A stretch of 13,543 nt of DNA, taken from contig JAIOPY010000022.1 in NCBI GenBank assembly GCA_021413625.1, forward strand, positions 1 to 13,543. The letters run 5' to 3'. A program made the translations under genes and the position numbers. The notes under the pieces are model-generated. The model did no database searches. It saw only the letters and a program-made list of their open reading frames with translations, and was not told the DNA's origin. This DNA is from Candidatus Nomurabacteria bacterium (lineage in GTDB: Bacteria; Patescibacteriota; Minisyncoccia; Phycocordibacterales; UBA9973). Positions 5,157-11,171 of this stretch are shown piece by piece (position 1 is the stretch's first letter; the number at the start of each line of letters is the position of its first letter).

Positions 5157-7562
5157 TTAATACCCTTTATTTTTAATGATTCTCTCTAAAAATTCCAAAG
5201 GAAATATAGGCTTTTTCTCAGCCAAAGCTTGATGATAAATAACAGTAGATGGAGTAAGCCCAGGCAGAGTGTTAATTTCAATAATAATTATATTGCCTGT
5301 CTTTAGGTGGACGAAAATGTCTATTCTGGCATAACCTCGTAGCCCTATCTTGCTTGCTACTTTCTCAATAGAGTTTTTTACTTTATTTAAATTTTTAGTA
5401 GAAATAATTTCGGTCGGTGGAGGTGTGATGTTAACCCCTGTGCCACCTTGAAACTTCTCTTCTACACTCAATATTGTGTCTTCAGCAATAGTTATAGATG
5501 GTGAAAGTGATTTGATTTTATCTTTCTCTTCCAACACTCCCACCGTCATTTCCACATATCCACTTTTAGGAGTGTGTTTTATTTTTCCATCCTGAACTTT
5601 TAATTTATCCGTCTCTATAAATGACTCAAAAATAACATCCTGAACATCCCCCTCTGGCATATCTATATTATTTGGCTGGCTGGTAAAAGTTCCCCGTGGC
5701 GCTACTGGAACTTTATTTTTAATCATGGATATATATGTGGCTAGGTCTTTTTCATTAGACAACATCACCACACCAGCGGAACAACCATCTCCACGAGGTT
5801 TACCAATAATTGTTTTGGTGCCAAGTCTATCTATGAGCATTCTCCAATGAGCCTCATTTAATTCTTTAGTGATATTTTTGGGCGTATCTTTTATTTCATA
5901 AAGCGCATGTTCAGCCACTTTAACTCCATCTATCTTTGCTTTTCTTAGAATTTCATTTGTTTCCCATTTATCCATGCATAATTTAGAAACAACTGTTCCT
6001 GACCCATTGAATTTTATTTTTTTATCTTTTAAAATTTTCTGAACGGTGCCGTCTTCGCCTATACCTCCATGTAATGCTAAAAAAACAAATGGGTATTTTG
6101 AAAGAAATTCATTTAATGTGTATTTTTTAGGAGTGAAAAAATTTTCAGTAGTGTCTGTTTTTGACACGCAAAGCTTGATTTTCACTTTGTCTATCAATAA
6201 ATGGAGTCTCTCCGAATCTTTTTCAGCGTTAATGGCATTACTTATAATTTCTTCAACAGTATGGTTGAGCATATAGGAATATGGTAATTCCCAAACCTCT
6301 CTATTTTTACCAAGTAAATATGGATAAGGTTTATAAATAGCAGAGCCTCGTAATTTAAGCCAAACATTAGTACCACTCATAAGCGATACTTGTTTTTCTG
6401 CTGTTTCACCCCCAAACAACACTGCAACAGGTTTACGTGTTTTGGAATTAAAAACATCCTCAATTCTTTCATCCATGCCACGATTTAAAAAAGCATTGTT
6501 AAGCAAAAAACGGAAAAAATCTTGGTGTGAGAAACCCAAACGAGACGATTGTAGAAATAAGAAACTATTTTGTTCCATACCTGAAATAGGATTAAAATCT
6601 GAAAACCAAATATTCCCATCAGGCATTAAAAACCCATCAAAACGAGCAAAATCTCTCATACCAAAAACTGAAAACAATTGTTCTGCTTGTATTTGGATTT
6701 TTTCTATAACTTCATTCCCAAATCTAGGCGGGCAATGATAAACAACTTGGCGAGTCGGTAGATATTTTTTACGAAAATCAAAAAATTGGTTTTGGTCATA
6801 TTCCACTTCAATTTCAGTTGGCAATACTGCGACAGGCATACCTAGCTTATTTTGCAAAATTATGACAGTAAACTCACGACCTTCCGCAAATTTTTCTACC
6901 ACTACACGAGTATCCATCCTTTTACTAAAAAGTATTGCTGCACTCTCCACCGCATCTTGTACGTTTTCCACTGAAAAAACTCCAATACTAGAACCTCCAG
7001 AAGCAGGCTTTACTATTGCTCTTTTTATTTTCTCGTCATCCCAGAATTTTCTTACTTTATTTTCAATATCTTTTTTACTATCTGTAATCTTAAGCACAAT
7101 AGAATGAGGAGCATAAAACCCTTTGGTGCGTATGTATTCGTTGGCTTTATGTTTATCAAAAGCCATTTTGCAAGATGCCGAAGAAGAGCCAATAAAAGGT
7201 ATTTTATTATCTTCTAAAAAAGATTGAATTTCTCCATCCTCTCCAAAAGTGCCATGAATACATGGAAAAACCACATCTACTTGTTTTAAAGTTTTTAGCA
7301 GTGAAGCTGTGGTAAGTTCTTTACCAGTTTTTTTTAATTTAAAATCAAAATCACTTGGAGTATTAGAATAAAGTTGAGCTGTAGATATTTTATAAGGTTG
7401 TTTTTTTTCGTTAAAATATATAGGGACAATTTCTACACCTAAACTACCTAAATGGTCTAATACACTTCTAGCAGAGTTAAGAGAAATACCTCGCTCTAAA
7501 GAAGGTCCGCCACAAAGCACAGCTACCGAGATTTCCTTGTTTTCTTTATGTTTCTTAGTCAT
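5157..7562 (-). CDS. ddl: Tandem D-alanine--D-alanine ligase fusion (two Ddl units in one protein)
   Basis: Ddl is an ATP-grasp enzyme that joins two D-Ala for the peptidoglycan stem peptide. At 801 aa this protein is more than twice the usual 300-370 and holds two complete units. Unit 1 (about 12-370) has GGPSLERGIS (18-27), HGTFGEDG (103-110), KPASGGSSIG (185-194), ARFDG (306-310) and a metal-site segment DFNPISG (322-328). Unit 2 (about 377-800) has GGETAEKQVS (384-393), HGGIGEDG (498-505), KPRGDGCSAG (588-597), ARIDIF (745-750) and EINTLPG (762-768), the canonical metal motif. Unit 1 has Asp322 for the usual Glu and lacks the Thr-Leu-Pro-Gly of that motif, so it may be altered or have another amino acid substrate. 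Unit 2 has an extra acidic/Gly segment around 610-700. rpmG follows after 40 nt. Confidence 0.9.
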   Translation of the reverse strand: MTKKHKENKEISVAVLCGGPSLERGISLNSARSVLDHLGSLGVEIVPIYFNEKKQPYKISTAQLYSNTPSDFDFKLKKTGKELTTASLLKTLKQVDVVFPCIHGTFGEDGEIQSFLEDNKIPFIGSSSASCKMAFDKHKANEYIRTKGFYAPHSIVLKITDSKKDIENKVRKFWDDEKIKRAIVKPASGGSSIGVFSVENVQDAVESAAILFSKRMDTRVVVEKFAEGREFTVIILQNKLGMPVAVLPTEIEVEYDQNQFFDFRKKYLPTRQVVYHCPPRFGNEVIEKIQIQAEQLFSVFGMRDFARFDGFLMPDGNIWFSDFNPISGMEQNSFLFLQSSRLGFSHQDFFRFLLNNAFLNRGMDERIEDVFNSKTRKPVAVLFGGETAEKQVSLMSGTNVWLKLRGSAIYKPYPYLLGKNREVWELPYSYMLNHTVEEIISNAINAEKDSERLHLLIDKVKIKLCVSKTDTTENFFTPKKYTLNEFLSKYPFVFLALHGGIGEDGTVQKILKDKKIKFNGSGTVVSKLCMDKWETNEILRKAKIDGVKVAEHALYEIKDTPKNITKELNEAHWRMLIDRLGTKTIIGKPRGDGCSAGVVMLSNEKDLATYISMIKNKVPVAPRGTFTSQPNNIDMPEGDVQDVIFESFIETDKLKVQDGKIKHTPKSGYVEMTVGVLEEKDKIKSLSPSITIAEDTILSVEEKFQGGTGVNITPPPTEIISTKNLNKVKNSIEKVASKIGLRGYARIDIFVHLKTGNIIIIEINTLPGLTPSTVIYHQALAEKKPIFPLEFLERIIKNKGY

Positions 7563-9543: not shown

Positions 9544-10095
9544 TTACCCCATTACTTCCTTCTCCTTCTTTTCAAAAATTGCTTCTAGGTTGCCATTAGT
9601 TTCATCTACAACTTTTTGCAAATCATCTTTTGCTCTAAACTTTTCATCTTCAGTCATCTTTGCTTCTTTTTCTTTTTCTTGAACGTCTTCCCAAACTCGC
9701 TCCCGTTCCCTACGCACACTGATACGCGCTTCTTCTAATTTTTCTTTTAGGATTTTAACTAGAGATTGCCTAGTTTCAGTAGTGAGTTGAGGAAATATTA
9801 CTCTAATGCCAGACTCATCTGTAGCAACAGAAAGCCCTAGGTTTGACGCCATAATAGCTTTTTCTATATCTTTCAACTGCCCCTTATCCCAAGGCGCAAT
9901 ACGCAGTGTTTTAGGGTCTTCAATAGAAACAGAAGCAACATTTTTAATTGGCATAAAAGAACCATAAGATTCCACAGAAACACCATCTAATACCATTGGC
10001 GAAGCTCGCCCGACATTAAGCTGGCTATATTCTTTGCTTAAAAATTCTTCTACTTTTTTGAGTTCCGTCTTTAAACTGGAAAAGTTATATTGCAT
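9544..10095 (-). CDS. frr: Ribosome recycling factor
   Basis: RRF splits the post-termination 70S ribosome together with EF-G. At 183 aa the length is normal (about 185). Features are NVGRASP (27-33), the beta-rich domain II with SIEDPKTLRIAPWD, and the long helical domain I return with an RRERERVWEDV stretch, both family hallmarks. The start at 10095 is fixed by TATAAT, a perfect -10, preceded by TG-A and ending 6 nt before the ATG; no ribosome binding site is present, so the mRNA should be leaderless. The promoter sits immediately behind the intrinsic terminator that ends the GC-rich segment upstream. rseP follows after 3 nt. Confidence 0.96.
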   Translation of the reverse strand: MQYNFSSLKTELKKVEEFLSKEYSQLNVGRASPMVLDGVSVESYGSFMPIKNVASVSIEDPKTLRIAPWDKGQLKDIEKAIMASNLGLSVATDESGIRVIFPQLTTETRQSLVKILKEKLEEARISVRRERERVWEDVQEKEKEAKMTEDEKFRAKDDLQKVVDETNGNLEAIFEKKEKEVMG

Positions 10096-10101
10096 AAATT
10101 C

Positions 10102-10110
10102 ATTATATCA
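10102..10110 (-). promoter_or_regulatory. Extended -10 promoter of frr (leaderless)
   Basis: Minus strand TGA then TATAAT (10107-10102), a perfect extended -10. It ends 6 nt before the frr ATG. The region where a -35 would lie is the T-tract of the upstream terminator, consistent with an extended -10 that needs no -35. Confidence 0.7.
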
Positions 10111-10118
10111 AAATTTGC

Positions 10119-10157
10119 AAAAAAAAGAAGGGCAACACGACGACCGTGCCACCCTTC
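10119..10157 (-). terminator. Strong intrinsic terminator at the end of the GC-rich segment
   Basis: On the minus strand GAAGGGTGGCACG (10157-10145) and CGTGTTGCCCTTC (10139-10127) form a 13-bp stem, three pairs being G-U, around a 5-nt loop. Eight T follow directly (10126-10119). It would end the mreB-delta' transcript just before the frr promoter. Confidence 0.85.
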
Positions 10158-10497
10158 GCAACCGCCGACCCACTAGTTGAGAATCGGCTGAACTGTGGAT
10201 GAAACAAACTTCAAGACTGCTGTCCGCCCGTCCGGGAGTTGAACCAGAACCTCGTCTGGTCCGACTACTCGCACGGGAAGAACAGGCAACGCAGTCTCGT
10301 GCGGGTTGAGGTCACGAATCTCCTTCGTGACATCGCACGAAATCTGGATTTCGCCGTTGAGGCGACCCACGTCCTGCCCATCAATGGACAGAATAACGTG
10401 AGCCCGGAATTTCCGTTCGGGCGCGGGTTCGTTGTGCATCAGGGCTTCGCGCCGCGCCGCCAAAGCCAGGCTCGTGCTCGCCGAACATACCGCCACA
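10119..10497 (-). other. GC-rich island of likely foreign origin, with a small ORF, hairpins and its own terminator
   Basis: Counting 10141-10500 gives 215 G+C of 360 (about 60%), against about 37% in the next 60 bases and an AT-rich window in general. The right edge, near 10495-10505, falls at the last codons of the delta' domain; the left edge is the terminator. Codon third positions on the minus strand are GC-rich and the reading frame is continuous, so minus is the likely coding strand. A possible separate start (ATG, 10439) would give an 88-aa protein containing GPDEVLVQLPDGRTAVLKF. I do not recognise the family. No terminal repeats, target duplications or transposase are visible. A chimeric assembly is an alternative. 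Confidence 0.6.
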
Positions 10498-11171
10498 GAC
10501 TCCATTAAACTTTTAGCAGAAGAGCCTGGTTGGCGAAGAAATTTACGAACCTTGAAAAAATGTTTCAAACAAACTCCTAGTGAACTAGACTGACTTTTAA
10601 GAAATTTTGAATGCAAAGAAACTTCAAGAGCATTTAAAAAGTTCAGTGCTTTGGAACGAGGAGAGTCAGAAGACAAAATTTCCTCCTCCTCTTCTGCCTC
10701 AGATAGCAACTCTTTAATAAAATCAATTCTATCTTTTATAGAACTCGCAATAAATCCTTCAGCTTCTTTTTTCTTAGAGTCTTTGCTCGTCTTAATTAAG
10801 AAAAATCTTGAAATAAAAGTCGGTATTAAAACATTGGCGTCAGGAATAATTAAAAAAAAGTGAGTATTTTCTATAGGTTCTTCAAACATTTTTAATAAAG
10901 TATTTTGCGCCTCTAGTAAAATATTATTTGCAGAAATTATAAATATTTTTTTACTAGTAGACATTGCTTTATCGTTACTAAAAGATTTTAAATTTCGCGC
11001 ATCTTCAACTTTCAATGAATCTAATTGAATATGACAAAAATCTGGATTAGCAATAGTTTCTACGCCTAAATTTTTCACCAAATCTATTATTTCTGGTAAA
11101 ACTCCTTCCTGCAAACCCTCAACAAGGTAGGCATGGTGCAAATTATTTTTATCTATATGTTTAAAAATCAT
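10173..11171 (-). CDS. holB: DNA polymerase III delta' subunit, with a fused GC-rich C-terminal tail
   Basis: Delta' is part of the clamp loader that places the sliding clamp on DNA. Residues 1 to about 225 look like a small bacterial delta': LHHAYLVEG at the start (11-19), a degenerate nucleotide site without a Walker A, LLEAQNTLLKMFEEP (85-99), the SRC-like element S121-R122-F123, and a helical collar ending in LRQPGSSAKSLMES. Patescibacterial delta' proteins are expected to end within a few residues of this point. Instead the frame runs on for about 107 residues of quite different composition (Val, Pro, Asp, Arg-rich; GC-rich codons) from 10496 to the stop at 10173. The tail has no similarity I can name. 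The start overlaps the mreB stop (ATGA), so the gene is cotranscribed with mreB and ends at the terminator below. The domain call is firm for the first part only. Confidence 0.75.
   Translation of the reverse strand: MIFKHIDKNNLHHAYLVEGLQEGVLPEIIDLVKNLGVETIANPDFCHIQLDSLKVEDARNLKSFSNDKAMSTSKKIFIISANNILLEAQNTLLKMFEEPIENTHFFLIIPDANVLIPTFISRFFLIKTSKDSKKKEAEGFIASSIKDRIDFIKELLSEAEEEEEILSSDSPRSKALNFLNALEVSLHSKFLKSQSSSLGVCLKHFFKVRKFLRQPGSSAKSLMESVAVCSASTSLALAARREALMHNEPAPERKFRAHVILSIDGQDVGRLNGEIQISCDVTKEIRDLNPHETALPVLPVRVVGPDEVLVQLPDGRTAVLKFVSSTVQPILN

Follow-up and report, generated by a model that had tools for sequence, protein, structure and literature searches.

How did a GC-rich island come to lie at the 3' end of holB, the gene of the clamp-loader subunit delta', in the AT-rich genome of a Candidatus Nomurabacteria bacterium, and what does it consist of? 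The island is located in the 13,543-nucleotide stretch of DNA analysed here (in the following referred to as the window), where it has mreB, holB and frr as neighbours. The window forms contig 18 of a draft genome of 527 kb in 84 contigs which is about 94% complete.

Composition and parts of the island

Over positions 10119 to 10497 the island has a GC content of 58.3%, whereas the adjoining 60 bases towards frr have 18% and the adjoining 200 bases towards delta' have 37%. Two-state segmentation places its edges at 10130 and 10503, which bears out the sharp compositional boundaries described in an earlier note on this DNA. The delta' open reading frame (minus strand, 10173-11171, 332 amino acids) reads in frame through the island, while its match to the Pfam family DNA_pol3_delta2 is confined to residues 38 to 128 (63.5 bits compared to a cut-off of 27). 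Within the cassette-derived frame the GC content at the three codon positions (0.68/0.42/0.65) follows the pattern of a coding frame. This frame has no recognisable promoter, Shine-Dalgarno (SD) motif or start of its own, and since neither an SD motif nor a promoter is seen before it, the original cassette has apparently lost its 5' part. At the opposite end a stem followed by TTTTTTTT forms a terminator-like site, one of two in the region scanned where shuffles lead one to expect 1.0, and the 391-base strand of the island is more stable when folded than any of 100 shuffled versions (z -3.4). The earlier note's claim that the island ends in a strong terminator of its own therefore holds for the stem with its T run, yet the T run itself may be native as some relatives (e.g. 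locus L016) have one at the same spot. The hairpin would be expected to end the holB transcript ahead of the frr promoter.

Table 1. Features of the holB-frr region in window coordinates
Feature	Position	Strand	Basis
GC-rich island, foreign cassette, 59.8% GC	10130..10487	-	composition, segmentation; site without island in relatives
Cassette-derived frame, 104 codons plus stop, in frame with delta'	10173..10487	-	ORF; codon-position GC
Native delta' (holB) part, residues 1-228	10488..11171	-	Pfam DNA_pol3_delta2; same-genus matches ending mostly at 228-237
Junction where the shared M-E-S-V-A of delta' stops and the cassette starts	10485..10496	-	by-eye comparison with the ATGGARTC.. ends of relatives
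Cassette 3' hairpin, 14-pair stem, intrinsic-terminator-like with T run 10126-10119	10127..10157	-	
AT-rich spacer with -10-like TATAAT of frr, probably native	10096..10126	-	resembles spacer of relatives, e.g. L016
frr (ribosome recycling factor), intact	9544..10095	-	Pfam RRF, residues 19-182 of 183

As the earlier note had stated, the encoded residues belong to no family known to us. For an 88-residue part beginning at an internal Met, a search of 5.8 billion proteins which needs shared five-residue words gave no relative, and the tail matches nothing in Pfam (E 0.01), PHROGs or PADLOC and has no relative in viral contigs. Against solved structures it yields one non-significant match (E 0.33), and a structure predicted for the 103-residue tail from this one sequence is not usable (mean pLDDT 52.8). 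Copies of the tail or the island elsewhere, which the earlier note had envisaged, did not appear: there is no second copy of the island DNA in its own genome, and 99 relatives contain two matches of 21-24 bases, one of them in a helicase-like gene (by eye), both of which we read as chance. The island DNA has one weak match in phages (45 bases, E 0.4) and none in plasmids. Elsewhere in the window, positions 5157-7562 encode a single 801-residue chain in which the D-Ala-D-Ala ligase unit occurs twice (two stretches each for the N and the C domain).

The holB-frr junction in relatives

Among the 99 relatives searched, 59 of which are of the same genus, a delta' protein match is found in 95, although for some it is merely a paralogous clamp-loader ORF. 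Full-length matches of the same genus end mostly at residues 228-237, close to the 225-235 which the earlier note had anticipated, and none of the matches listed from the 99 relatives extends beyond residue 246 of 332. A tail of ordinary host composition, which the note had named as evidence against an insertion, is accordingly not seen among these listed matches. The spacing between the Met-Glu-Ser codons of delta' and the start of frr could be measured in 24 of the 29 loci of the genus. It amounts to 43-68 bases in 19 loci and to 126-170 bases in five, which hold another small element between the two genes, compared to 410 bases in the window. In the remaining five loci the motif patterns gave no match; one of these (L030) has a different gene after delta'. 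In all 24 measurable relatives the island is absent from the junction. Together with the two chance-like matches of its DNA this supports the horizontal gain proposed in the earlier note.

Native delta' ends in these relatives with six to eight residues such as LIIPNF followed by the stop codon. The delta' of the window keeps M-E-S-V-A and then departs from the homologous sequence (by eye), so that about six to eight native C-terminal residues and the stop are gone while 103 in-frame codons and a hairpin are added. Hence the island at this junction is an insertion fused in frame to delta', and the event was a replacement plus an insertion. The in-frame join to the last codons of delta' which the earlier note had described is continuous as to the frame, but it is these last codons and the stop which were replaced. 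As the lost residues are few and variable among relatives, the clamp-loader function is probably kept, and the tail is presumably tolerated by the clamp loader rather than useful to it.

As an observation apart from the island, palindromic elements (CCCGTTAGA/CCCGTACGA) of 48-121 bases, with arms of 12-14, lie scattered over 20 places, before frr in L011, L014, L023, L025 and L031 and elsewhere in L122, L124, L126, L139, L141 and others. The five at frr are flanked by exact seven-base repeats containing the ATG of frr, those elsewhere by shorter repeats (by eye, with a one-base offset).

Further islands in the same genome

From 81 of the 84 contigs, 14 of them masked, 480,969 readable bases were surveyed by segmentation. 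This gave 53 GC-rich segments, and the 27 of at least 220 bases were considered. Five of these were dropped, namely those holding 16S rRNA (L057), RNase P (L072:759-1109) and tRNA clusters (L104, L109) and one in L062 which lies inside a 471-residue ORF, GatA-like by eye. The remaining 22 islands, that of the window included, comprise 10,222 bp. They span 231-1,220 bases, and each is essentially one ORF of 32-403 codons. The term cassette used in the earlier note is thereby strengthened, as there are 21 further islands of like anatomy. Its statement that the cassette lands at gene ends applies to the window copy; the other 21 adjoin genes and do not sit inside them, 16 with an ORF on both sides and five, near a contig end, with an ORF on one side only.

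The cassette genes are set apart from those of the host by their GC content at third codon positions. It ranges from 0.57 to 0.94 in 25 cassette genes (21 of this genome including that of the window, and four of relatives; L039 joined the set afterwards), whereas the mean of 319 host genes is 0.26 and their maximum 0.40, so that the ranges are disjoint. A 3' hairpin below -15 kcal is present in 23 of 25 cassettes compared to 15% of 147 host genes, its strength being in part a consequence of GC. Promoter scores exceed those of shuffles at p<=0.01 in just five of 25 cassettes; the promoter of L067 matches the consensus in 12 of 12 positions. Few islands encode a recognisable family. The products identified are a family 2 glycosyltransferase, an M48-like peptidase, an HTH_17 protein and a weak DUF218 match, to which a Pfam scan of the 25 proteins adds a few weaker matches and PADLOC a single one (mad1, 2.4e-7), probably the HTH protein.

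In their DNA the cassettes do not match one another, and such repeats as were found sit in the flanks. The earlier note had also called the island mobile, for which the genome offers little: no boundary repeat common to the set was found, Pfam recognises one tyrosine recombinase (Phage_integrase), XerC/D-like by eye, and reverse transcriptase (PF00078) has no match. Two neighbouring cassettes at L059:5885-6181 and 6312-6587 encode proteins which are 29% identical over 49 residues. In L036 a 73-base hairpin stretch (1067-1137 and 1617-1689, 93% identical), located downstream of a lysS-like gene (by eye), flanks the second cassette on both sides.

Shine-Dalgarno motifs and the 3' end of 16S rRNA

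As SD motif we counted a purine motif located 5-15 nt upstream of the start, and its frequency at the cassettes exceeds the background. With starts chosen by eye it precedes 20 of the 21 cassettes other than the window copy, L035 being the one without it, while the complementary control motif precedes none of the 21 and internal ATG/GTG codons inside cassettes show the SD motif in 8% of 274 cases. Since these starts had been picked by eye we repeated the count with mechanical longest-ORF starts, by which 12 of 21 cassettes have the motif compared to nine of 320 host ORFs (p=1.6e-11). Among host ORFs of at least 150 residues it is present in nine of 319, and the host rate is no higher than that of a control window further upstream (3.7% compared to 5.9%). 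A screen for SD motif plus hairpin returned 18 ORFs in this genome compared to 12 for the control motif and is therefore nonspecific inside GC-rich DNA. In 852 kb of relatives it returned 16 low-GC small genes compared to four for the control motif, which indicates that high GC is not the defining mark of the cassettes.

The 16S rRNA of this genome (L057:530-580) ends in GTGGATTAATTCAATTTG, without CCTCC, and its tail GGATTAATTCAATTTG offers an SD-initiated gene no anti-SD in this cell. The anti-SD is described as highly conserved across Bacteria in PMC8710568. It is absent from all 31 genomes of the order that were read (13 relatives of the genus, 17 from 17 other families and this one), drawn from the 43 of 60 genomes searched in which the 16S anchor is present; many of them share the tail AATTCAATTTG (L179-L208). 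SD-led cassettes in an order whose 16S rRNA is devoid of the anti-SD thus carry the signals of a translation system which the recipient appears to lack, and the host ribosomes appear unable to read them. G492 and G375, which belong to this phylum but not to the class, retain CACCTCC. Yet in G492 none of 22 host genes sampled has an SD motif, so the lack of SD use extends beyond the genomes that have lost the anti-SD.

Distribution in relatives and beyond

In 20 stretches of relatives (392 kb) one cassette was found in each of four, G013, G017, G019 and G052. The stretches contained 11 segments of at least 200 bases, seven of which were discarded as core-gene- or repeat-like by eye. Five further stretches with seven segments gave four cassettes, one in G013 and three in G492 (32 kb). 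Two of the latter have an SD motif; the third, a glycosyltransferase gene, does not. The other segments included a host-like gene in G019 and, in G017, two overlapping SD-led GC-rich ORFs (L213:10503-12121), which shows that not all such units are single-gene. In 400 kb of three relatives two segments appeared, neither of which was taken as a cassette.

At the cassette site of G052 the neighbouring genes lie 35-58 nt apart in six relatives. The G019 cassette protein occurs in one of 80 genomes of the genus, G019 itself, and the L041 protein, which has no match in plasmids, in one of 379 genomes of the phylum, the present one. The glycosyltransferase is found in three of these 379, this one included, and of the 188 genomes of the class in this one alone; in G375 it does not form a clear GC island. 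Among 84,980 species genomes a pattern scan returned relatives of 33-35% only, and a search of 5.8 billion proteins about 60 close relatives, of which the two named ones are Patescibacteria. Two of the three cassette proteins searched in this way have no relative there. With cassette proteins in so few genomes gain and loss look fast, and we infer a quick turnover. A low-GC SD-led gene in G058 occupies the position of the G019 cassette, to which it shows weak similarity (E 7e-6), and a third such gene, in G033, resembles that of G058. Either the donors differ in GC content or older copies have retained the SD motif in the course of drift; the latter, if so, would hint that the motif matters.

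Origin of the cassettes

We consider it probable that the island is a cassette gained horizontally from a GC-richer, SD-using cell, one among 22 or more in the genome, which lost its 5' end on joining the gap between holB and frr. The ancestral unit would have comprised a leader with an SD motif, one ORF, a terminator and perhaps a promoter, and the donors would be cells that use SD signals. That the two named close relatives of the glycosyltransferase are Patescibacteria speaks against an ordinary bacterial host as donor. DNA with such a complete unit would enter the cell and, without homology, join an intergenic gap; units would survive whole since neither neighbour is harmed, the terminator shielding the gene that follows. 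At the site in the window the cassette would thereby have lost its 5' end and delta' its native stop, so that delta' now carries the cassette frame as an extension of 103 residues. As to the route, we tentatively favour DNA uptake followed by illegitimate end-joining in intergenic gaps, although it may well have been a different one; for Patescibacteria, PMC12455944 suggests that environmental DNA is taken up via comEC and pili.

Single transcription units left by, or moved between, phages and now chromosomal could have produced a similar picture. Such morons possess signals of their own, a terminator and foreign GC, an anatomy which that of the cassettes resembles. Among the 25 proteins PHROGs matches six families with one member each, a GtrB-like (9e-20) and an excisionase-like one (1e-5) being clear and the remainder matching terminase small subunit or transposase at 0.002-0.007, and the glycosyltransferase has 14 weak phage relatives (below 60% identity) and two in viral contigs at 23-32%. 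We nevertheless regard a phage origin as rather unlikely. No prophage is recognised around the window copy (the other loci were seen as ORFs only), the tail, L105 and L041 proteins are without relatives in viral contigs, that of L105 also in phages, and a phage adapted to a host without anti-SD should not need an SD motif. Single ORFs with an SD motif and a 3' palindrome would likewise suit integron gene cassettes placed at secondary sites, but the attC core (RYYYAAC/GTTRRRY) was not noticed by eye at the palindromes looked at, and the sole tyrosine recombinase match of the draft, about 94% complete, is the XerC/D-like one; this origin is very improbable.

We assign an equally small chance to the idea that the islands are cDNA copies of mRNAs from leader to terminator. 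Their GC edges do roughly match transcript-like units, but the genome gives no PF00078 match and consensus promoters lie upstream of some islands, as in L067. That the islands are chimeras of a draft assembly is highly improbable, even though the draft consists of 84 contigs and six of the 22 islands lie within 750 bases of a contig end: there are 22 separate ones with gene-unit edges, and other assemblies contain the like anatomy. A last variant supposes that the cassettes are kept as expression-ready units for another SD-using cell, such as a host or partner, whose ribosome their SD motif, terminator and, in some, promoter would suit better than that of the carrier; the order would act as carrier of a pool of small genes, which would then act or spread in other bacteria. 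We think this improbable.

If we return to horizontal gain from SD-using cells, genes transferred into streamlined Patescibacteria are as a rule recognised by matching them to a donor, a method that misses genes lacking relatives. Where a lineage is apparently devoid of the anti-SD, an SD motif would provide an independent label for incoming genes, one by one, and would render their rate of gain and loss, and whether they are translated, directly measurable. It also raises the question of why complete single gene units arrive instead of random fragments.

Comparison with known systems

A literature search comprising few subscription journals and no preprints returned no paper that we recognised as a description of SD-led cassettes or of anti-SD loss in Patescibacteria. 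In kind the process is ordinary, being the horizontal gain of single genes; its form and setting are unusual. PMC12455944 reports that individual genes were gained horizontally in Patescibacteria, most transfers taking place among Patescibacteria, and the cassettes share with these the gain of single genes. Those transfers were called with MetaCHIP from matches of donor and recipient, whereas the cassettes are mostly genes without known relatives, marked by SD motif, third-position GC and hairpin, in an order without anti-SD; the main text of that paper does not contain the term Shine-Dalgarno. The host's SD-poor genes have a parallel in Bacteroidia which are reported (PMC8710568, PMC9976891) not to use SD motifs although the anti-SD is kept; in the order studied here the 16S rRNA does not contain the anti-SD at all.

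Phage morons are, like the cassettes, autonomous single-gene units with foreign composition and a terminator, but the cassettes lie between chromosomal genes, and around the window copy no prophage is recognised. Integron gene cassettes have in common with the present set the single ORF, the SD motif and the 3' palindrome; the set, by contrast, is scattered, with no attC noticed by eye and no integron integrase recognised.
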